This document shows positions 4,008-44,276 of a DNA stretch of 64,000 nucleotides, in pieces (position 1 is the stretch's first letter; each line of letters begins with the position of its first letter). The DNA is from Thysanoteuthis rhombus (taxonomy: Eukaryota; Mollusca; Cephalopoda; Oegopsida; Thysanoteuthidae), in the NCBI GenBank assembly GCA_963457665.1, contig OY735209.1, positions 54,586,519 through 54,650,518 of the forward strand, in the 5' to 3' direction. The position numbers and the translations under genes are program-made. Under the pieces are notes generated by a model. The model ran no database searches, was not told the origin of the DNA, and worked only from the letters and a program-made list of their open reading frames with translations.

Positions 4008-4845
4008 AGAGTATACAAGTATGCAAGTTGCGCATCAATGATCAACCTCCCCTTTTTCGGGCCTTGTCTTCGGGATCAAAGTGTAGTATCTGTTCCACGG
4101 CATAGACCGAGGCGCAGCTACTGACACTTGCCAGTCGAAAGATTATGTGTGGGTTGACATCAAAGACCGAGTGCGCCGGTGCAAGCGTTGGCCAATGAAG
4201 TTTGACTGAGGCTGCGTTTGCTACGCGCGTTGGGAGGCCTTTGGACTCGTCCTTGGGCTCTCCCATTAATACTCGACCCAGCTACGGGGTCTCTGTTCCC
4301 CCGGAGCAGCACTGCTCCATTGCATTTAAAGGAGCAGGTCCCCTGGTGGATACTTTCGTGGCGGAGGTTGTTGTAGCTTCTACGGTCGCTTGGCAATCGA
4401 AGTCACGTTGGCTGGAGCCATTTTTGGAAGAGTTGCTCATATTTTCCCCACATTAAGCCCAACTCTGTGTCAAATAATGCTGTGGTGGGACAGTGATTAA
4501 ATAGATGCTCAAACTTACATGGAGAAACCACAAGACAGTACAGCATATAAGGGAGAAAACGGGTGTCTGTGACATCCTAGAAACTACTAAAAAACTCAAA
4601 TGGTAATGGGCAGGCTATGTTGCAAGAATGAAAGATAACCGATGGACATCACGTCCCACAACAAGGATTCCCAGAGATCACATAAGGAAACGAGGCCGAT
4701 AGAACACAAGATGGAGAGATGAACTGGACAGATTCAGGGATTACTGGCTCTGCGACGTCCATGATAGAGAATTGTGGTAAATCCCGGGGAAGGTCTATGT
4801 CCAATGACGGACGTTAAAAGAATGATGATGATGATGATGACAATG
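4008..4845 (+). mobile_element. Composite non-autonomous element: GC-rich head plus RTE LINE 3' end
   Basis: This block interrupts one tandem unit: the unit text breaks off after about 4007 and resumes at about 4846. Bases 4040-4460 are much richer in G+C than the surroundings and match nothing I recognise. From about 4510 the plus strand decodes, with stops, to the carboxy end of an RTE-type polymerase: WAGYVARM, DNRWTSRPTT, IPRDHIRKRGR, TRWRDELDRFR and GKVYVQ, followed by a short GAT-repeat tail at 4826-4844. The simplest reading is one insertion with an unrelated 5' head and a LINE-derived tail used for retrotransposition. Two separate insertions are also possible. Confidence 0.55.
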
Positions 4846-6355
4846 AAACTCATTTCAATTTATGTTCAGTTGTGAGTATGTAGATACACAGTAAGGATTG
4901 CAATAAAGAATAAGCTTGACTGTGCTTGGCTCAAGTTCCCTTGCTTCATTAAAATCTTAATTGTATAGAAGTTGAATGAAACAATTCATTTTTCAATACA
5001 ATATCATTGTAAAACAACGTGTCCAATGCCCTGATTTGGGCTTTCGAAGTGGAAATGACTCCATCAGTTTTTGCCTACGTCGCTGGGTCACTGTCCTTTG
5101 TAAATGATATCAGTGGTTTTTAGTCATAGTAATCGGTCATCTATCAATGTTTTTACAAACGAAAAATACAGTATAAACTCGATTGTAGGGGTTCGATAAA
5201 AGAAAGAGAGAAAACGTCCACAAAGCCTAATGGTTAATCAGCCATTGGCATCGAAAGCAAGAAAGGAATAAAGGAAAAATGCGTACTCAGCCTAATGGTA
5301 AATTCACCATATTCGAAAGCAATGAAGAAAGAAAAGTGTCAATCCGACCCCACTCATTCGATTCTAGTGGTTAATAGCTGGACTCCTGTAATCTCTGACC
5401 CATGAACGTTTTGATGAATAGTGTAAGTTATTTTTGATTATAAATGATATCATGGCTTTTAATAACATTTGAGAGCATAGTAGTTTTTACAAAAAACAAA
5501 ACCAAATATTTATTTACTCCACAGTTATTATTTTTTGCTACTATTTATCTCCATCTTAATTGGTGTTGCTTTTTATCGCAACTAAAGAATGAAGACAAAC
5601 ATAATAATAGTAGAAATCAGTATTGACGATTAGTAATACTCCATGTGCAAAAATAAATGAAAATCTTTTTTAAAACAAAAAGCCTATATGTGGTAGAAGT
5701 AATGATTACAGGAAATCCTCTCGTTGACTAAACTGAACGTAACTACCAATGATCTACTTAGAAATCGGGACTAATATACCTTTTTGAATCGATTTTTTGA
5801 ATCAATCAAAATCATTTCAATGAGAACAAAACATTTACTGTATGAGAAAATCAACATGTCTAACTTGACTTTCGTTCAAACGAATGGCTATCGACTTCAT
5901 TCAGACATGACGTCACTGCATCTCTCTTTTTGTATCCATTCTTTGAAAAAATCAATGCTGAAATCGAAATGTCTTAAATTTGAAAGTCTGACTTATTGCG
6001 ATAATAAACTCAACTGTCGGAGATTGACAATGATTTAAAGGTGAGAATCGAATTCACAACACTATGCTATTGCGAGGCTAAATTAATGACCAACCACTGT
6101 AAATATCGAGCAATGCAAATCCAAATAATTTTTTAAAACTTATCCCCCATCTTGATTTCTTCTGCAACCATTATTAAATCGTTGGTCAGTATCGCTGATC
6201 CTAAATTTTTTGCCACTCCTTATGTTCATTCAATTCATGTTTCTCTCTATTGTAACTAGACTCGGGCCGGTTTCCTTTTGGCAGTGAGTAAAAAAAAAAA
6301 ATACCAGCATAGATCGGAATGAAGAATAAGTTCCGGTTGAGAATCAAACTCATGA
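4846..6355 (-). repeat. Broken continuation of the SINE-like array
   Basis: Array units resume after the insertion. Parts of units are visible at 4850-4920, 5510-5590 and 5990-6355, including the landmark at about 6264 and B-box-like text near 6045 and 6345. In between, about 5205-5420, is a second SINE-like segment with two copies of a GCCTAATGGT motif and a tRNA-like TAGTGGTTAATAGCTGGACT stretch near 5364-5384. A related sequence on the opposite strand lies at 7905-8050. The rest is AT-rich with no gene. Confidence 0.45.
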
Positions 6356-13910: not shown

Positions 13911-14556
13911 CTCACTCACCTTCAAACATATACATAAAAATAAAATATTTTTATGTCATTGTTTATTGTAATATTCACTCTTCACAAAGAACACCTGTTG
14001 TAAGCAACGAGACTCAAATGTGTAAGCCAATCTCCTTCAGCAACGGTTTATTATTGTCTTTTTCTTGTATATCTTGGAATGTTCAGGTGTAGGAAGGAAA
14101 CGATAAAAGTCGTGGTGAAATAAATTTTAGCTTCCTGCTCTGTATTGAATATTTCGCAACATTAGGGTTAGTGTTAGCTTTCTTGAAATTTCAAAGATTA
14201 GAAAATTTACAATGCTATCTGTTTTATATAAAATGATGATAACATGACTGCACCTGGTTGAAATTGTGGAATCATCAAACTTACAGGATGTTCACCTAAA
14301 AATTCTACTTTACAGAGAATAAACAAATCACAAATACGATATGAAATGATTTTTGTTCGACAGCAGAATGTTTTGGCTTCATGATACACACCTCAAACAG
14401 ATTAATTTTTTTTTAATTAACGGCATTCTCCCCAGATCAAGTGAAAGGAGTAATTATGGAATCCCTCGAAGATGAGAGAAAAAAAATTATGCAATCTGTT
14501 TTCGATTTGCATTTCTTAAACAAATACCAGTGCAGATTTGAATATGCAAATTAATC

Positions 14557-17500
14557 ATGGCTCCAGCAAAAGATCTGTCAACTATAACAATGGAGAGGAT
14601 TATAAAACTTGTTAAAGAAAGAAAATCCAACACGGATTGTGGCAAGTGATGTTGATTATTCCTTGTCAGCTGCGTCTAACACTTGGTGCAGATATCAACA
14701 AAATGGGAAAGTAATTAGAGAACATATAAGAGAACGTCAAGGTATGGCCATAGATAACCTCAAGAAATATGCCTTGAATGTGGAAAACCAAAGGCAATTC
14801 CTTGAAAAGAGAAAATCCAAAGCAATATGCCATGAAAATAGATCCAGAGAGATTTGACTTGAAAATAGAAAAATCCAAAGCAATAAGGTTTTTAAATTGA
14901 AAATCCCCAAGCGAAATCCCTTGGAAATACTCAAATAATATCCCCCGAAAATAGAAAAGCATAAGCAGAATTCATTGAAAATAGAAAACCCAAAGTAATA
15001 TGCCCCTGGAAAGAGAAAACCCGACGCAGAATTCTTTGAAAATGTATGACCCAAGGCAGAATTTCTTAAAAATAGAAAAAATAACCTTGGCAGAATTCTT
15101 TGAAAATAGACTGAATGCAATATTCCCTTAAAAAAAGGAAATCGAAAGCAATATTCCCTGAAAAAGAAAACCTTGAGCAGAATTCCTTGAAAATAGAAAA
15201 TGCAAAGCAGAATAGAAAATCCCAAACTATGTGCCTTAAAAATAGAAAACCCAATGCAATATTCCCTAAAAATAGGTGGAACTTGGCAGAATTAATTGAG
15301 ATTAGAAAAACCAAAGCGAAATGCATAAAAAAAGAAAACCCAAAGCAACACTGAAGCAATATTACCTGAAAATAGAAAACCAAAAACAGAATACCTCGAA
15401 AATATAGAATCAGAAGCAATACACCTTGAAAACAGGAAACCCTGAGCAAAATTTCTTGAAAACAGATAAAACAAAGCACTATGTTCTGAAAATATAAAAA
15501 GTCAAAGCATAAATCCCCAGAGATAGAAAACCCAAAGCCTTGAATAAAGAAAACAAAAAGCAGAATTCCTTAAGATTAAAAAATCCAAAGCAAAATTTCC
15601 TAAAAAGAGGACACCCGAAACAGAATTCCTTGCAAAAAAAAACAACATAAAGCAATATTCCCAGAAAAAAGACGAACCAAAGCAGAATTCCTTAAAAATA
15701 GATAATCTAAATCAATATTCCTTGGAAATAGAAGACCCAAAGCAATATGACTAAAGAATAGGGAACCCTAGGCAGAATTTCTCGGAAATATAAAGCCTGA
15801 AGAAATATGCTTCGGAAATTGATAATCCAAAGCATAATTCCACGAAAAAAACAAAACAAAAAAACCCCGAAGCAATAAGCCTTGAAAACAGAAAACCTTA
15901 AGCAGAATTTTTCTAAAATAGAAATTCAAAAGCGATATTCCCTGAAAATACAAAAACCTGAAGCATCATTCTCTGGAAATAGAAAACTCTAAGCAATATC
16001 ACCTGATGATAGAAAACTTTTTACAGAATTTCTTATGAAAGTGAACCCAAATTAATATGCCACGAAAATAGAAAACCCAAAGAGGAATACCTTGAAAATA
16101 AAAACCCAAGGCAGAATTTTCTACAAATAGAAAACCCTGAGCAATATGCCTTGAAACCCCACCCCACGAATATTCACTGCAAATGGACATCCAAGACAGA
16201 ATTCCTTGAAAATAGAAAACCCAAAGCAGAATTCCTTGAAGATAGAAAATCTAAATCTATATGCCACAAAAATAGAAAACCCAAAGCAGGATTCTTTGAA
16301 AATGGAAAACCCAAGATAGATTTTCCGACAACTATAAAACCAAAGGCAACTGCTTTGAAAATACAAAACCCAAATCAATATTCCTTTGAAAAAAGAAAAA
16401 GCAAATGAAATATGTCTTGAAAATGGAAAACCAATAGCAATATTACCTGATAATACAAAACTTAAATCAATATACCAGGGAAAGAGAAAACCCGAAGCAA
16501 TATGCTTTGAAAATAGAAAAACCTAAGCAGCATTCCCTGAAAGTAGGAAACCCAAGCAATATTCCCTGAAATTAGAAAACCTTACCCAGAATTCCTTGAA
16601 ATTAGAAAGCCAAAAGCATTATACATCAAAAATAGAAGACCCAGAGCAATATGCCTTGAAAATAATAAACTCAAAGCAATTTGCTTGGAAATGAAATAAA
16701 CAAAAACAAGGTGGAATTCCTTAAAAATAGAGAACTTGAAGCAATTTGCCTTGAAAATTGAAAACTGAAAGCAATATTCCCTGAAAATAGAAAACCTTTT
16801 GCAGAATTCTTTGAAAATAGAAAATCCAAAGTAATATGCCATGAAAATACAAAACCTAGAGTAAAATGCTTTGATAATAGAAGACCCGATGCCGTACTTC
16901 CTGAAAATAGAAAACCCAAAGCAGAAGTCCTTGAAAATACAAACCCCAAAGCAGAACACCTTGAAATTATAGAATTTAAAGTAATATTCATTGAAAATAG
17001 AAACTTTCATAACAAATTAAATTAAAAACAAGTGGTTCGAGTAAGAATTCTATGACTGTGAGAAAACTGAGAAATCACCCGAAGCAAATAGAATTTACGT
17101 ATAGAGAAGCCAAACAAAAATCAGCATTATTATCTTTACTGATATGGTTGGGTGGAATAAAGTGAAACAATCATGGAATGTGGATGATTGGATGGAAGTG
17201 ATATTCAGTGATAAGTAAAAAATATGCATAACTAAAAGCCATGGTGCTTGAAGCTTAGAATGAATCATATAGAGCTGATTACTTGAGGAAAACAAACGAA
17301 TTTCCTGACTCCTCCACAATATGGGGTAGTATTTCGGGTTAAGGACCAGATGATATGGCAATCATTATATCAACAGTCAATACTCAAGTGTGCATTGCCA
17401 TTTTGAACATTTTCCTCATTCCATCAATTGGGAATCGATTCAGTAATGATTAAATCACTTTTCTGGATGGGGATGCATATTTTACACAGACCAAAGAGAG

Positions 17501-17790
17501 TTAAAGCTATTCTATAAGCAAGACGTATCAACTCAACAACATGAAAAATATACAGCCTTGATCTGAATCTGATTTGAAATTATGATGATAATTACAAGAA
17601 ATGGTTCTTGAGAAGGCTCCATCTTGCAAAAGCTGATCTGTCCGTTGCTTATCGAGAAAGTTGGAAGCAGCTCGATGGAAAATATTATTTCAATAATGAA
17701 GTTGATACTTCAAAGAATATAGGCCATCATAAAAGACGAAAAGGGAGCAACAAAGTAATAATTTTCATTATTTCATTGATGATTCTTTGA
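14557..17790 (+). mobile_element. Decayed Tc1/mariner transposon with internal minisatellite expansion
   Basis: Both flanks of the minisatellite decode to one Tc1-like transposase. Before it: an ATG at 14557 with MAPAKDLST, a helix-turn-helix-like IIKLVKERKS, and SAASNTWCRYQQNGKV (14670-14712). After it: KNKW (about 17026), EFTYREAKQK (17091-17120), WNVDDWMEVIFSD (17174-17212, carrying the first catalytic D), a GPDDMAII-like piece (about 17344), a LDGDA piece where the second D region is expected (about 17463), a SLDLNLI-stop-N piece where family members have the third acidic site (about 17555), and ADLSVAYRESWKQLD near the C-terminus (17632-17676). Frameshifts and stops make it inactive. Terminal inverted repeats were not found by eye, so the outer limits are uncertain. 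Confidence 0.8.
14780..17010 (+). repeat. 30-bp minisatellite derived from ten transposase codons (~74 units)
   Basis: A unit close to AAAGCAATATGCCTTGAAAA plus TAGAAAACCC repeats with a 30-base period over about 2.2 kb. In the transposase frame it reads KAICLENRKP. Units fall into three interspersed kinds, reading KAICL/H-ENRKP, KAEFLENRKP and KAIFPENRKP. Tc1-family transposases carry a KAICLENRK-like segment at this place, and the array sits exactly where that segment belongs, between the paired-domain part and KNKW. The unit therefore most likely arose by tandem amplification of the transposase's own coding sequence. Because 30 is a multiple of three, long accidental frames are open on both strands. 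I do not regard these as genes. Confidence 0.85.
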
Positions 17791-17799
17791 TCACTACCT

Positions 17800-18163
17800 C
17801 CACATTGAGTAATTCCTGGGTTAATGGGTTGAGTGTATTAAGCTTACTAACTGGATAGTGGTGCGATCAATTCTTAGCATGGGTGTTGCACACCGTTGGG
17901 AAGGTTTGAGCAGACTCCCAGACAGACATTTTTTGTCTCCCAGGCACCCTCAGAGAGGTCAACCTAGTCTGCGCAATTTTTTCTGTGACCGTTATCAAAA
18001 TGTTTGAAAGCGGAATTATGAATTTGTGATTCCGATAATATGAAATCCATAATATTCCAGCCAGTGTCGGATTCGATTACAGATGCAGAAAAAACAAAAA
18101 AAAACAAAAACAAATATAAAGTGACTGGAATAATGATAATTGTATGAAATAACGATTATGAAG

Positions 18164-25521: not shown

Positions 25522-26513
25522 GACAGATAAAAGATATAGTAGACGAGAAATCATGGACGTGGTTACGAAAGGGAAACCTTAAGAGAGAAACAGAATCGCT
25601 CATCATGGCAGCCCAAAACAAAAGCATAAGGACAAACTACATAAAAGCAAAAATCGACAGAACACAGACAAACAGCAAATGCCGCATGTGCGGTGAAAGA
25701 GATGAGACAGTAAACCACATAACTAGTGAATGTAGTCAGCTCGCCCAGAAGGAGTATAAGCATAGACACGATAGAGTAGCAACGATGATACACTGGGAAC
25801 TAAGTAAACAAATGGGATTCAACCATGGGGAAAAGTGGTATCAGCACAAGCCAGAGGCAGTTTTGGAGAATGACAACCACAAACTACTGTGGGACTTTGA
25901 CATCCAAACTGACCACCTCATCCAGGCAAGAAGGCCGGACTTAGTAATAGTAGACAAAAAAAGGAAGGCCTGCCAAATAGTAGACGTTGCTGTACCTGCA
26001 GACCATAGAGTAAAAAAGAAGGAGGGTGAAAAAAGGGAAAAATACCAGGACCTAGCAAGGGAGTTAAGGAAAATGTGGAACATGAAAACCAGGGTAGTAC
26101 CGGTCATAGTGGGCGCACTAGGAACTGTCCCCAAAACGCTGAGGGAGAGACTGGAGGAGATCGGGATTAGGGGAAGGATAGAGACCGTACAGACCACAGC
26201 GCTACTTGGAACTGCACGGATACTGAGGAAGGTGCTAGAGATATAAGGACTGCAACGAATAGTAGCTCTGTCATGATATGCGAAAGAGGGAGGAGACGTT
26301 AGCTGAAGACCTGAGGAGACTTATTGTCACTCAGCCTTCAGCGATAACCACTGGGCAACCGGTGTGAAACTGTAAATCGTAGAATTACTGCGACCTATGA
26401 GTAGTAGGAGAGGAGGGCTGGAGACTTGAGGAGACTTGCTGTCACTCAAACTCCAGCGGTTACCACCAGGCAACTGGTGTGAGATTCCAAATAATAATAA
26501 TAATAATAATAAT
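25519..26513 (+). mobile_element. R4/Dong-like LINE, copy A (5' truncated, young)
   Basis: This copy starts abruptly at a point equal to about 32253 in copy C and runs to an AAT tail (26490-26513). Its coding part (25519-26246) is open to the normal stop. It includes a CX2CX8HX4C zinc knuckle (CRMC...HITSEC), the RHDRV motif, and RPDLVIV followed 14 residues later by the D of IVDVAVP, which together are the restriction-like endonuclease region of the R2/R4/Dong group. The frame also stays open through the upstream AAT repeat as polyasparagine, but that is fortuitous. By eye there are about 15 differences from copy C over about 1 kb, so both insertions are recent. Confidence 0.85.
26246..26489 (+). 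ncRNA. LINE 3' UTR with two related hairpin units
   Basis: Two related segments follow the stop. Each has a 7-bp stem: GCTGAAG (26302-26308) with CTTCAGC (26336-26342), and GCTGGAG (26417-26423) with CTCCAGC (26451-26457). Each is followed by a smaller hairpin closed by a GCAA tetraloop, the second being CACCAG-GCAA-CTGGTG (26464-26479). The base-pair swap between the two stems keeps pairing. Such structure could be what the element's polymerase recognises for target-primed reverse transcription. That role is inferred. Confidence 0.6.
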
Positions 26514-27876
26514 AGCCTCCAGTTCCACTACTGGCAACCAGGGGGCACCCATCACCGAGCGGCAGTCAGCCAGAATAAAAGGAGAAAATGGACAAGAGAG
26601 AACGAAAGGTCAAAATGTATTGCTACTTCAATAGCAAATTGTCTATGCAGGGCTACTGGGAACGCATGCTCAACATATGGAGGAAAAAATCCATCATGGA
26701 GGTATCAAACCACTGCTTGGCTGATCAAGCTAAGAAAAACCCTGAAAAACAAATGGCTCTCAGAGATAAAAGTACAAAAGATCTGCAATGAAATAGAAAA
26801 AGAAGAAAGTGGTTCACTCGGAGAGGAACCTCTCAACTCAACAAACAAACATAGTAAAAGATAAGATTGAAACAAACGCAAACAAAAAAAAGCATGCACT
26901 AGAGAGAGACGCTGACAACCCAACGGAAGAAGAGAAAGCTCAGATACTAACTTTAAAAGAAATAATTTGAGAAGAAAAAATAACACCCTCAAATCTCAGG
27001 GACAAAGACAGGAAAAAACTAAAAGAAGCAATCGAACATGTCAACTGCCTCTTGCAACATATCAAAATGAACGGCCATACAGAACTCAGCAACCTAATCT
27101 ACGCTGTAGTGAAAATGGTAATGGGGCTCTTTACAACACAAAGAAAATCCCCGAATTGTTGGAAGGAAAAAACAAACTTGGAAACGAGATTAGAAAGATG
27201 AATCTTGCAACTTCAGAGGGATGATAGACCACTGAGAAATGCACTATACATGAATAGATCACGTGCAAAACTATGAGACAAATGCAAAATAATACAAAAA
27301 GGTATTCCCCGGACAGTGGGAGTGATACATCAGAGAAAGCTAGCCTAAGAGGTGAGACTAAAGACATATAGGCAAAGGACCAATGCACACCGAACTCCTC
27401 AATCCAAAACAACGAGAAAAAGTTTTACTGGGATCTGAACAGAGAAAAAAAAAAAAAAAAACAGAACATAAAGATAAACTTGAAGATAAAATTTCTGTAA
27501 CAGTATATGTTGTCACCCAAAAATCACAACGAAACCCCAGAATGGTTACTAAGTATGAAAGGACGTAGGCAATGGAGAACAAAAGGTATTGAATGAAACA
27601 ACATTGAAACACACTCTCAAAAAATAGCCAACTGAAAAGCACCAGGGCCGAATGGGATCCACAGATATTGGTTCAAGGAATTTAACACATTACACCATAG
27701 ATACATCCACCAACTGTAAAGTCGCTTAAATGAAAGCGAGGTCCCAGAATGGATGACTAGAGGCAGAACCATGGTCATCCAAAAGGAACCTGAAAAGGGG
27801 AACAATACAAACAATTACAGACCAATCATGTGCCTACTACAAATGTGGAAAATCCTGACTGGATTGATAGCAGAAA

Positions 27877-30038: not shown

Positions 30039-32979
30039 ATGCCCCCCAGCACAACTAGTACCAATAACAAAACTAGAAGAATTCCCCATGAGACCCCCAC
30101 AGTAAACTATGCACCAGAGGGTGACGACGAGGCACCAACGGAAGAAGAGAAAACCAAAATACAAGCTTTGACAGAGATCATGCGAGGAGAGAAAACAACA
30201 CTCCCCTCCCTAAGAGACAAAGACAGAAAGAAAGTTGGAGAAGTGACCGAACAGCACATAGAAACGAACACCCTCCTAGAACTGAACAACCTAATTTACG
30301 CTGGGGCGGAAATGGTAGCATAAAGCTTCACAACACAAGATAGGAACATGAGCAATAATAGGGAAGAGAAACCCAACTGGGAGAGAAGGTTACAAAGGCA
30401 GATCTCCCAACTACAGAGAGATGAAGTACTGCTTAGAAATACACCACACACAGACAGACCACGAGTAAGACTTTATAACAAATACAAGGTAACGCAAAAA
30501 GGCATCGCAACTGTAGTCGAAGAGTTACACCAGAAAAGACTAGCCAAAGAGGCAAGACTAAAAAGATACAGACTAAGAACGGCCCAATACACACAAAACC
30601 GCACATTCCAAAACAATGAGAAAAAGTTTTACCAAGATTTAAATGGGGAAAGAAGGCAGGACATGAAACCAGATGCCACAGAGGCCAAGAACTATTCGAA
30701 TAGCATATGGGGGCACCCAAAAAGACACAACGTAACACCGCAATGGTTAGGAAACATGAGAAAAGAACTACAAGATATAGACAAGGGAGAACCAATAGTA
30801 CTGAATGAAACCACATTGAAACATACTCTTAGGAAAGTAGCCAACTGGAAAGCACCGGGTCCCGACGGGATCCATGGGTATTGGTTCAAAAAATTCACCA
30901 CGTTACACGGCAGACTCACCCACCTACTCCAAAATTGTCTAAATGAAGGCAAAGCACCAGAATGGATGACTAAAGGCAGAACCACCCTCATCCAAAAAGA
31001 CCCGGGAAAGGGGAACATAGCAAGCAACTATAGACCAATCACGTGCCTACCACTTATGTGGAAAATCCTGACCGGGCAAATAGCAGAGAGAATATACATG
31101 TCAATGGATAGAAGGGGACTACTACCAGAAGAACAGAAAGGGTGTAGGATAGGAACCAAAGGGGCAAACGATTTACTCTACATAGACCAGATGATCTTAA
31201 AAGAAGTAAGGAAAAGGAGAAAGAATATCGCAATGGGATGGATAGATTACAAAAAGGCATACGATATGATTCCACATAGCTGGATACTCGAATGCCTTAG
31301 AATGTTCAAAATTAGCGAACCGGTGGTTAAATTCATTGGTAATTCAATGGAAGACTGGAAAGTAGATTTGACAGCCGCAGGGGACAAACTAGCCGAGGTA
31401 GGGATAAAAAGGGGAATCTTCCAAGGAGACTCGTTGTCCCCACTATTATTTGTTCTAACAATGATACCGCTTAACAGAATCCTGAAAAACAGCAAAGGAT
31501 ACCACTTCTCTAAAACAAAAGGAAAGGTCAACCACTTAATGTACATGGACGATATTAAATTGTTTGCAAAAAACAGGGGAGAGCTTGAGACTCTGTTCAA
31601 CGAAGTAAGGGAATATAGTGAGGACATAGGAATGGAGTTTGGGATAGAAAAATGTGCAATCATGGTGATGCACAAAGGAAGGCTTTCAATGACTGAGGGA
31701 ATTGAACTTCCGGACAACAACAAGATTAGGGCATTGACTGCACAAGACCGATACAAGTACCTAGGTGTCCTTGAATGTGACACGATAAAACGGGAAGAGA
31801 TGAAGGAGAAAATTAAGAGAGAATACCTCAGAAGGATAAGGAAAATATTAGAAACCAAATTAAATAGCAGAAATCTAATAAAAGGAATGAACACCTGGGC
31901 TGTGTCAGTAGTTAGGTATACAGGACCATTCCTAGGATGGACAAAGGAAGAGCTCCAATCAATGGATAGGCGAACAAGGAAACTTATGACGATGCATAAA
32001 GCATTACACCTTAGGGATGATACAGATAGACTATACGTTAAGAGAAAAGAAGGTGGTAGGGGGCTCATCAGCATAGAAGATTGTGTCCAGAGAGCTAAAG
32101 TAGTCCTAGATAGATATGTGCAAACAAATAGTGAAGAAATCATAAAGAGCGCGAGGGATAGTGCAACAAACAATAAAGTAGAAAACAATGGAACAGTACA
32201 GCAAACTAGAAAAGAAAAGTGGGAAGGGAAAAAATTGTACGGCGAGTTTAAAAGACAGATAAAAGATATAGCAGACGAGAAATCATGGACGTGGTTATGA
32301 AAGGGAAACCTTAAGAGAGAAACAGAATCGCTCATCATGGCAGCCCAAAACAAAAGCATAAGGACAAACTACATAAAAGCAAAAATCGACAGAACACAGA
32401 CAAACAGCAAGTGCCGCATGTGCGGTGAAAGAGATGAGACAGTAAACCACATAACTAGTGAATGTAGTCAGCTCGCCCAGAAGGAGTATAAACATAGACA
32501 CGATAGAGTAGCAACGATGATACACTGGGAACTAAGTAAACAGATGGGATTCAACCATGGGGAAAAGTGGTATCAGCACAAGCCAGAGGCAGTTTTGGAG
32601 AATGACAACCACAAACTACTATGGGACTTTGACATCCAAACTGACCACCTCATCCAGGCAAGAAGGCCGGACTTAGTAATAGTAGACAAAAAAAGGAAGG
32701 CCTGCCAAATAGTAGACGTTGCTGTACCTGCAGACCATAGAGTAAAAAAGAAGGAGGGTGAAAAAAAGGGAAAAATACCAGGACCTAGCAAGGGAGTTAA
32801 GGAAAATGTGGAACATGAAAACCAGGGTAGTACCGGTCATAGTGGGAGCACTAGGAACTGTCGCCAAAACGCTGAGGGAGAGACTGGAGGAGATCGGGAT
32901 TAGGGGGAGGATAGAGACCGTACAGGCCACAGCGCTACTTGGAACTGCACGGATACTGAGGAAGGTGCTAGAGATATAA
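30039..32979 (+). pseudogene. LINE copy C ORF: reverse transcriptase plus restriction-like endonuclease
   Basis: One long frame with three small lesions. The pieces are 30039-30323, 30348-32300 and 32337-32903 (same frame), then 32758-32979 in the next frame. Lesions: TAA at 30321, TGA at 32298 where copy A has CGA, and an extra A in the A-run near 32761-32767 where copy A has six and this copy seven. Domains in order: basic N-terminal linker, KAPGPDGI (about 30849), catalytic motif A in DYKKAYDMIP (D at 31263), GIFQGDSLSPLLF (about 31415), catalytic YMDD (31542-31553), thumb, CX2CX8HX4C zinc knuckle (32412-32465), and RPD (D at 32670) with the second acidic residue in IVDVAVP. It would reverse-transcribe the element's RNA at a nicked target. 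The frame upstream of 30100 is also shifted. Confidence 0.85.
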
Positions 32980-33034
32980 GTACTGCAACGAATAGTAGCT
33001 CTGTCATGATATGCGAAAGAGGGAGGAGACGTTA

Positions 33035-33212
33035 GCTGAGGACCTGAGGAGACTTATTGTCACTCAGCCTTCAGCGATAACCACTGGGCAACCGGTGTGA
33101 AACTGTAAATCGTAGAATTACTGCGACCTATGAGTACTAGGAGAGGAGGGCTGGAGACTTGAGGAGACTTGCTGTCACTCAAACTCCAGCGGTTACCACC
33201 AGGCAACTGGTG
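33035..33212 (+). ncRNA. LINE copy C 3' UTR hairpin units
   Basis: Same layout as in copy A. First stem GCTGAGG (33035-33041) with CTTCAGC (33069-33075), where a G-T wobble replaces the A-T pair of copy A. Final hairpin CACCAG (33197-33202), GCAA loop (33203-33206) and CTGGTG (33207-33212). Pairing is kept although the bases differ. Confidence 0.55.
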
Positions 33213-33223
33213 TGAGATTCCGA

Positions 33224-33286
<63 letters not shown>

Positions 33287-33288
<2 letters not shown>

Positions 33289-34940
33289 ATAAAAAAAGAA
33301 GACTGTTTTGGATTTTCAAAAAATGATATGATGAATATAATAAAACAAAACTGAAACATTCTTCAGTCAAAACTCAAAATTAAAACGTTAATGGTGCGTA
33401 GTGCAAAGAGAAACGAAATAAATTGCACACACTTGTTTTTACTGAAGTGCTTGCTCAGCTCTATCGCTGCGATGCTTGTTGGAACATTTACTCAAGTGGT
33501 TGATGTAAATTCCACGTTAACAAGTCAAGTATTTCACATTCTAAAGCCTACATGATATTTTTGAATTGACAAGAACCACACGAAATTTCGCGTGTATTGC
33601 TAGGTCAAACATTTTTCAATGTTTTTGTATGTTCCATCTGGCTAAATGATTTACACAAGCTTTTTAAAAATTTTCCTATGTGCATCTAATGCTTGGTTTT
33701 GATGTTATTCATGTTTCAGTTGACAAGTGACTAAAATTGATCGAAAGTTTCGCTTTCAGACGTACAAAACTATTGGAGGCTCTAAAAAGTATCTGGGTGA
33801 TACTCAATTATAATCTGATGATTTCTAGTCAGGATGGCAGAAAATCTATTGATGTTTTAGCGCCAGTTGACAACTAATGGCACTATCATTCGAAAATAAT
33901 TTTCAATTTAAAGAAAGTCTTGGTGATTCCTCACTTCAACTTCTTTTACCATCCAAATTAGTTTAAATTGAGTTTAACCTCTGCTGATGTATAAAAAATT
34001 ATAACCCCAGTTGATATAAAAAATTACAAATTTATGAAAATGCTTTCAGTAGTCTCCAACAAAACTGCAAATCTTCCTGATTCAAATGAATTGCGAAAAT
34101 AGAATAGATCTGATAGTGTTATTTGAATTATCTGAAAGTTTGTGTACGTATGTTTGTTTAGAAGTTATAAATTCAGTTATAAGGAAATGTTAAAGGATTT
34201 TTACTCTCGTGTAAAACTATTCCTTTTGTAGAAAATTAACAGGTGAAATCTATTCTTGATTTTTTAGTTATACCCTTCTGTGAAAAAATCACAATAAAAA
34301 GGAATGTTTTTTAACTTTTTTATCTACTTTCCACATTAAGGAAATATCATCTTTATACCTGATACATGTCAACGATTTCATTTCATGACCCTTTTCTGGA
34401 GGCTTCTTGTTCTGTTTTCAATTTAGACATGAATAGATTCGTGAAATTGACTGCTATCGGAAATGCCAAAGCTGTTAAGTTATATGATGGTAAAATCCCC
34501 ATTTAAAATTGAGGGTATTGCTCCTGCGAATAAACGAAATTTTATAAAAAAATGTAGTCCAATGGCATTGAAAGATCTCTCCGTTCATCAAGGGCTTCTT
34601 TACTAGCACAAATACCTTCTTTTGTGGTCTATGTTTGGCATAAAGGAGAAATATTCATTAAGAAAAATTCCTCTCCAATAAATTTTGAAAGGTCTGAATA
34701 AGCAGGGTTTTCAACAAAGTCTATGGTATCTTTGATGTAAGAGGAGGTTATTTTTGCCGTTGGTTTTCGGTAAATGTCAATCTATTCTTATAACTTAATA
34801 GTACAATCTTCATATCCATTACAAATTGTTCTCAAAGGCGGAAAATTCAAAGGTTTTGGATTGATTTTTTGGAAGGCCGTTAAAATCAGGGATCCGTGTA
34901 TCTTCCCTTAATTCTTTGTGCTCTATTTCATTAATGTACC
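33287..34940. other. No gene seen
   Basis: AT-rich spacer without a supported gene or recognisable transposon. Confidence 0.5.
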
Positions 34941-35210: not shown

Positions 35211-35344
35211 AGTTAAAAAAAAGAATTTCCCATTCATATACCCATATGTTCACATATGGTTTGTATCAAAACACATATATATGCACACATTTGGTTTGAC
35301 AATGCTTATCAGTCTGATATTTCAAGCTCTGTGTTTTAATCATC

Positions 35345-35820
35345 ATCATTATCAGTTTTTTATCGTCTGTCGTTGGACACAAACCTCCCCCAGGATTCAA
35401 CAGATCTCCATATCATGGGTGTCAGGTCTGTCCATCCAGCTCTAGAGGTCCATATTGTGAGTCGTGATGTCCATTAATTGTCTGCAATTCTCACCATTTG
35501 TCTAGCCCACTACCATCTGATTAATCTAAATGGATTCTATGATGTCTCAGACTCCTGTATTTTCCCTGATATATTGTGAATTTTCCATGTTAGGTTGAAG
35601 ACGATTCTTCCATGTGCATGTTTCATAGTTCTCAGTTTGAAGGGTCAGTCTCTCGGTTAAGTTCCATGTTTAAACCCCAGAGGTGAATAACAGAAAAATG
35701 CATTGGCTGTATATCCTTCTTTCAAGGACTAATGAGACTTTCTTGGTGTAGCTTGCTCTACCGAAGGCTTGCCATCAGAATGATCCTTCGCTTGATTTAT
35801 CCCTCTTCTGAGGATTTCAT
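35345..35820 (-). mobile_element. RTE LINE 3' end with GAT tail
   Basis: The minus strand decodes, with stops, to the RTE carboxy region: a YSQC-to-TWNLTERL stretch (where better copies have YNQCILP and TYGAETW), DNQWTS-like residues, the HDMEIC region and a GEVCVQRQTIK end. It closes with an ATCATCATTATCA tail (plus strand, 35338-35352). It is 5' truncated near 35820. Confidence 0.65.
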
Positions 35821-43941: not shown

Positions 43942-44180
43942 ATACATGGCCATGTTGCAAGAATGGCAGACAATCGATGGACATCACGACTCACAACATG
44001 GATCCCCCGAGACCACATGTGCAACTGAGGCCGGCAAAATGTTGGATGGAGAGACGAGCTAGACAAGTTCAGGAAGTACTGGCTCCGTGACGCCCATGAT
44101 AGAAAAGTGTGGCAAATCCTGGGGAAGGTCTATGTCCAACGACGGACGCTAAAAGACTGATGATGATGATGATGACGATG
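43942..44180 (+). mobile_element. RTE LINE 3' end with GAT tail
   Basis: A well preserved tail copy: HGHVARMADNRWTSRLTTWI, PRDHMCN, GWRDELDKFRKYWLRDAHDR and WQILGKVYVQRRTLKD, then a GATGATGATGATGATGACGA tail (44159-44180). It begins just after the hammerhead-like motif. 5' truncated. Confidence 0.8.
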
Positions 44181-44276
44181 ACATATATGTGAGTATATAT
44201 ATCAAAGTATATGTACCTAGGTATATACACATATATATGGAAGTATATATGTATGCATATATGTGCAGAAGCATGG

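Follow-up and report, generated by a model that had tools for sequence, protein, structure and literature searches.

A 2.2-kb minisatellite in the window, the 64,000-nucleotide stretch of DNA analysed here (C12:54586519-54650518; host assembly of 2.73 Gb in 514 contigs), most probably grew out of ten codons of a transposase gene. In the reading that we prefer, with a probability of about 0.88, slippage or unequal exchange at an 8-bp repeat turned codons of a Tc1-type transposase into the array, and the matching segment on contig C17 expanded, probably separately. Relatives of the transposon carry one unit at the site, the arrays end at the 8-bp repeat, and the units have decayed in star-like fashion in the window and in layers on C17. 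The original prediction, that ten transposase codons had become a minisatellite, is supported by these relatives, in which the single unit lies in frame at the same site.

The transposon copy in the window

Based on DNA identity to relatives, the window appears to hold a decayed Tc1-type transposon copy that is interrupted by the array (Table 1).

Table 1. Features of the Tc1-type copy and its repeat array (window coordinates)
Feature	Position	Strand	Evidence
5' terminal inverted repeat region of the Tc1 copy	~14221..14496	+	Inverted alignment to 3' end of relatives
N-terminal transposase coding remains, putative, decayed; DNA-binding part, frame change near 14630	14557..14761	+	DNA identity to relatives
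Left 8-bp boundary repeat, ATAGATAA in the window, mostly ATAGAAAA in relatives	14750..14757	+	Alignments
Degenerate 30-bp unit array, 75 units, probably derived from transposase codons	14762..17003	+	TRF, wraparound alignment, single-copy counterpart in relatives
Right 8-bp boundary repeat, ATAGAAAC in the window, after which single-copy transposase resumes	16997..17004	+	Alignments
C-terminal transposase coding remains, putative, decayed; catalytic part, several frames, stop at 17756-17758	17004..17758	+	DNA identity, motif order

The N part (query 14557-14792) showed 61-76% DNA identity to relatives over stretches of at least 113 bp in 21 of 25 sampled loci, and further copies of it were met in the genome search with the N flank. 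The C part was 60-73% identical to relatives, with E values down to 3e-97, and the order of its motifs matches that of Tc1A, Tc3A and Sleeping Beauty. Stops and frame changes are present in the flanking transposase. The flank peptides named in the original prediction were all recovered; the right flank, however, is split across frames. That prediction had also placed the end at 17790, which is the end of a stop-to-stop ORF; the transposase stop lies upstream of it. When the array is removed and one unit restored, the distance from the ATG at 14557 to the stop at 17758 is 990 nt, or 330 codons. Tc1 transposases are usually about 330-345 codons long (343 for Tc1A, 329 for Tc3A and 340 for Sleeping Beauty).

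The stretch upstream of the coding remains matches both ends of relatives L006 and L047, inverted, over approximately 200-310 bp, as terminal inverted repeats would; the 14221-14496 segment aligns inverted to L047 2254-2531 (67%, E 2e-27) and likewise to L006 and L043. The 3' terminal repeat of the window copy is mostly lost (best match score 36, mean of shuffles 29, 23 of 300 shuffles as high), and the matches of L047 to the window end at 17815. No terminal repeat pair was found within the window by itself.

Other repeats were observed in the window. A LINE occupies 30324-32903, with further stretches at 25955-26514 and 32687-33301, and encodes a reverse transcriptase (RVT_1, E 2e-28). The latter two stretches share 95-97% identity with locus L004 (1-615), and on the strength of that identity the LINE was probably active recently. 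A dispersed repeat is located at 4557-4846, 43957-44181 and 35333-35424, and also lies near Tc1 copies L005 and L009.

Single-unit copies in the host genome

The genome was searched at the DNA level, and all counts from these searches are lower bounds. The C-flank query (17050-17790) gave 42 matches including itself, from 40 scored of 681 candidates; apart from itself and one 55-bp piece these were 66-73% identical. With the N flank and its upstream sequence as query there were 476 candidates, of which 40 were scored, yielding 57 matches. A first sample of 25 loci consisted of 20 picked from the C-flank matches and five from short matches to the unit (L032-L036).

Both flanks were matched in 21 of the 25 loci, and in 18 of these 21 the interval between them was 11-43 bp, about one unit. 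The exceptions were inserts in L035 and L037 and a deletion in L041; L037 has one unit at the site, its insert lying beyond it. The N match was absent in the remaining four loci, three of which (L040, L044 and L045) still have a site with one unit. In none of the 25 sampled loci was an array seen.

A second sample of 20 loci was taken by the N flank, to avoid choice by the C flank. One recognisable unit was identified in 16 of them (best unit score 30-56 of 60, with thresholds fixed after the scores were seen) and no clear unit in four. A clear second unit was found in none of the 20, the second best score being at most 25; L076 came close, with 30 and 25. Copies with 2 to 10 units were not seen, the junction search used being insensitive.

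The original prediction asked how many units other copies hold, and the answer from the sampled copies is one. The N and C parts are contiguous in the relatives, so that the flanks belong to one element and not to different transposons. Nor were arrays seen spread without Tc1 flanks: the array query met the window array, one array on C17 and five short matches, all within Tc1 copies, the five short ones being L032-L036.

The 8-bp boundary repeat and a proposed mechanism

The single-copy site reads ...GGATAGAAAACTCAAAGCAATATGCCTTGAAAATAGAAAATGCAC..., and contains the octamer ATAGAAAA two times, the second starting 30 bp after the first. The spacing of the two octamers was exactly 30 in 15 of the 25 loci and 28-32 in five more, five being not measurable. 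The first octamer was perfect in 12/25 loci and the second in 7/25; both were perfect at spacing 30 in three (L032, L033 and L034), and both were kept in one of the 20 loci of the second sample (L081). When 13 single-unit genes were scanned for exact repeats, L034 alone had the octamer at spacing 30, and L043 had a 10-bp form at spacing 28. Shuffling one copy 3000 times produced an 8-bp repeat at lag 30 in a given register 7 times. All four ends of the window and C17 arrays fall at the octamer, in decayed form, each array starting at the first octamer and stopping at the second. Since in most copies one octamer or both are no longer perfect, we can only infer that the pair was the state before the copies decayed. 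Such a pair could readily seed slippage or unequal exchange, and it may have been the cause of the expansion.

The following course of events is proposed. A copy of a Tc1-type DNA transposon would have inserted at the window locus, its second DNA-binding motif (DRK-LKAICLE-NRK) carrying ATAGAAAA twice at a start-to-start distance of exactly 30 bp. The 30-bp segment would have been doubled by slipped replication or by unequal exchange between the octamers and, with two units present, further exchange could have raised the number to about 75, seemingly in one burst. The window array would then have stopped, and point mutations and small indels would have decayed it alongside the dead gene. On C17 the matching segment would have expanded, probably separately, to about 51 kb, with kilobase-scale duplication following later.

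History of the window array

Tandem Repeats Finder reported 30-bp repeats within 14762-17003 in several rows. By wraparound alignment the array consists of 75 head-to-tail units, one more than the approximately 74 first estimated, with 79% identity to the consensus AAAGCAATATTCCTTGAAAATAGAAAACCC. The identity at lag 30 was 0.534, as compared with a mean of 0.319 (sd 0.009, maximum 0.344) in 1000 shuffles, and the periodicity is thus far beyond chance. With 14501-17700 masked, no further copy of the array was found elsewhere in the window (nhmmer, best E 4.1).

With four subtype columns excluded, the divergence of the units from the consensus is 0.18, and pairs of units are on average 0.691 identical, against 0.690 expected for a star. 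Neighbouring units are no more alike than distant ones (0.648 at lag 1, permuted mean 0.6625), and no exact repeats of 30 bp or more occur inside the array. Because of this star-like identity and the lack of likeness between neighbours, the array looks like one old burst that was then frozen. The divergence of the copy's own flank from the family majority is 0.236, which the changes in the seed (2/30) together with 0.18 approach; as this rests on two changes, it is only a hint that the burst came some way into the life of the copy.

One large jump would leave the same star-like divergence as many quick steps. Rolling-circle amplification of an excised circle, followed by reinsertion, would be such a jump, and it is the best of the alternatives to stepwise slippage or unequal exchange, although a rather unlikely one. 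Nothing observed points to it directly, and the fit of the array ends to the 8-bp repeats needs just the first tandem duplication.

The window array also contains two linked unit subtypes, with AT or GA at positions 7-8, tied to position 11, which suggests that two variants of the unit were already present at the time of the burst. Alternation of the subtypes along the array was considered and was unconvincing (25 of 44 neighbours, a value reached in 443 of 5000 shuffles).

The C17 array and the number of births

The second array lies on the minus strand of C17 at approximately 27095790-27146964, about 51 kb or, by length, some 1,700 units. It was read at 27091401-27101000 and 27111001-27149000, plus two 400-bp probes in the 10 kb between. 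Its 3' flank is transposase from the unit to the 3' end (L047 1440-2429 against L064 4458-3522, E 2e-106), and on its 5' side terminal-repeat sequence leads into the final bases preceding the site, the N-terminal code having been deleted. The edges of the array share an older consensus, with 83% identity, and the sampled core has a later one, with 92-93%. These differences in consensus and identity make an internal re-amplification of the core probable. Exact repeats of at least 200 bp, at spacings such as 3001 and 12842 bp, account for 15.2 kb of a contiguous 31 kb of the array.

A unit-to-unit junction pattern, allowing up to 3 mismatches, gave at least one forward match (the window) and at least 334 reverse matches, the backward control giving 0; among the matches listed, all were in the window or C17. 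The pattern is insensitive to old arrays, the 74 junctions of the window yielding one match. With the C17 edge as query, four matches fell in the window array; L036, which has a single unit, was also found, as was a short match on C41. The place of the query itself was not listed, showing that the DNA search skips much. Two arrays in the genome is therefore a lower bound.

The two arrays have unit and edges in common, and a 2.2-kb array could in principle still travel with its transposon. A single birth in one Tc1 copy, with both arrays descending from it by transposition of the array-bearing element, would account for this; we regard it as improbable on several grounds. Among 253 pairs from 23 copies, the lowest similarity was that between the C part of the window copy and that of the C17 copy (0.612; mean 0.737). 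These two formed one clade in 0% of 200 bootstrap trees, although the bootstrap had not settled and the tree was star-like and poorly resolved, with 17 of its 20 inner branches open. Compared with the single-copy site, the consensus unit of the window has changes at 2 of its 30 positions and that of the C17 edges at 2 others, so that the changes are private to each array. The N-terminal part, finally, is kept in the window copy and lost in the C17 copy. L032, L033, L035 and L036, with matches below 400 bp, were left out of the pairwise, consensus and tree comparisons. Because of the dissimilar C flanks, the lack of a shared clade and the private unit changes, the two births were probably independent, although a small early duplication common to both arrays is not strictly excluded.

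Of the 23 copies, the two with arrays (window 17004-17790 and L064 4458-3522) show the longest terminal branches, 0.29 and 0.28, against 0.087-0.19 for the others. Their divergence is 0.236 and 0.230, as compared with 0.119-0.171 in the comparison copies, 20 of 21 of which were chosen by likeness to the C flank of the window. The long branches may reflect this choice, age or raised mutation. By another measure of divergence the single-unit L036 (0.203) exceeds the C17 copy (0.182), which weakens the contrast, and no clear gradient of mutation with distance from the array was seen.

Preferring separate expansions, we also lean, with somewhat less assurance, towards regarding this transposon family as a satellite nursery. 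A built-in 8-bp/30-bp seed would have turned the same ten codons into tandem DNA at least twice independently, once as a stalled 2.2-kb array and once as a re-amplified 51-kb satellite with kilobase-scale exact duplications.

The unit as transposase code

Apart from minor differences, relatives have D/N-RK-LKAICLE-NRK-CTTKQMENKW here, and the EFTYR segment comes next; the unit is in frame with this downstream ENKW..EFTYR stretch. The translation KAICLENRKP, originally proposed for the unit in the transposase frame, holds for the ancestral frame, which the relatives show as DRKLKAICLENRK, and fails for the first unit of the window. That unit reads KKYALNVENQ in the frame of the left flank, and KAIC..NR appears only at units 2-3.

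Three relatives were read through for Pfam domains. HTH_Tnp_Tc3_2 (PF01498) was identified at residues 68-136 of L006 (33.4 bits, curated cut-off 31.5), below the cut-off in L047 (20.4 bits), and not in L034. As the site lies about 218 nt into the L006 gene, the unit falls inside this domain. The flanks in the window gave no transposase-type Pfam match because they are too decayed, and DDE_3 was matched neither in the window nor in L006, L047 or L034.

Comparisons with remote proteins are superseded by the genome search. In a frameshift alignment with a lax penalty, FSD, FYTD and DLNLI-stop-N lay over the three catalytic motifs. Window controls scored at least as high as the C flank in 0/310 cases with Tc1A, Tc3A and Sleeping Beauty, in 4/310 when a generic protein was added and in 105/310 with Tc1A alone. 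The N flank alone was not significant against remote Tc1 proteins, and with profiles of two to four proteins 91 to 444 of 798 controls were as high. Sleeping Beauty alone gave no signal in frameshift alignment (window controls as high: N 124/1196, C 79/466). Only with a fish-type protein were values of 0/798 for N and 0/310 for C both reached; its sequence was entered with the window already known and is not independent. With the flanks joined, four proteins and a lax frameshift penalty, 0/300 shuffles and 3/234 window controls were as high; with three proteins and a stricter penalty, 31/300 shuffles were, and with Sleeping Beauty alone 132-140/300. The unit peptide, when aligned to remote Tc1 proteins, did not fall at the site. 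Scans of viral and genome contigs returned no useful relative, with one bacterial match at 27%; phages yielded no relative and plasmids only distant IS630 transposases.

Insertion of a ready-made minisatellite into a Tc1 copy, with a chance likeness to transposase, follows a described route, at least in the available text of PMC12628747. It is very unlikely here and already largely refuted by the single-unit relatives, in which the unit is single-copy and in frame where there is no array and lies, in one of them, inside a Pfam transposase domain; moreover, the transposase resumes at both array ends without extra DNA.

The units had been described as keeping the codon period, which is true in a loose sense only: a length of exactly 30 bp is seen in 46 of 75 units, a frame-shifting length in 26 of 75, and divergence by codon position is 0.221, 0.239 and 0.171, the third being the lowest. 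Selection for a transposase with many DNA-binding repeats, to which the unit length (a multiple of three) and a surviving 131-aa ORF in the sense direction might point, can be dismissed, since frame-keeping and an excess of silent changes were both sought across the 75 units and neither was found, third positions are the least and not the most diverged, and the transposase on either side carries stops and frame changes.

Comparison with known systems

Minisatellites and satellites are known to arise from transposons (PMC9659126, PMC12628747, PMC6947457), and the Tc1 case is a variant of this route, in which units of tens of base pairs stand in tandem and the parent transposon retains a single-copy counterpart. 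A search of the open literature gave no description of a minisatellite that had arisen from Tc1 transposase codons, subscription papers being largely outside this search. A 2026 annotation of the repeats of Octopus vulgaris has in its main text, as far as available, no word beginning with "satellite" (PMC13282606).

Satellites are often hard to trace to their origin, the single-copy ancestor having disappeared; in this genome many copies still preserve it. The seed behind the 30-bp period is readable, and two array sizes show early stalling against later runaway growth from the same start. The model of small flanking repeats becomes testable by counting the expansions of one site across copies and species. 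In the available text of PMC9659126, terminal and non-coding parts of transposons prevail as satellite sources, with some links to reading frames, whereas here the coding DNA of a cut-and-paste transposon is seen in that role.

The nearest known case is miDNA4 of Xenopus tropicalis, a Tc1/mariner MITE with an internal satellite (Scalvenzi and Pollet; PMC12628747, PMC9659126), which is thought to have captured a tandem repeat (PMC12628747). From what these sources describe, both are of Tc1/mariner type, both have a monomer in some copies and arrays in others, and for both direct repeats of at least 5 bp beside the monomer have been proposed as the cause. In contrast to that non-coding MITE and its captured monomer, the monomer here is coding DNA within the transposase frame of a full-length family, and the two arrays sit in otherwise decayed copies. 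Xstir of Xenopus likewise has single-element, composite and tandem forms side by side, but it involves internal MITE sequence and a proposed stem-loop excision, according to the text available (PMC12628747).

Chicken satellite DNAs related to transposon ORFs, as outlined in PMC9659126, resemble the present case in that the monomer is tied to a transposon reading frame; compared with the cases in that source, the single-copy ancestor, the seed repeat and two array sizes are here visible in one genome. Minisatellites have also been born from Alu, B1, LTR and MaLR elements, and the model of Haber and Louis invokes slippage or unequal exchange between 5-10 bp repeats that flank the future unit (PMC6947457). 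In the portion of that source available, those minisatellites share with ours a birth by short flanking repeats, and the octamer pair around the unit is the arrangement that the model requires; unlike those retroelement sources, the source here is the coding DNA of a cut-and-paste transposon.
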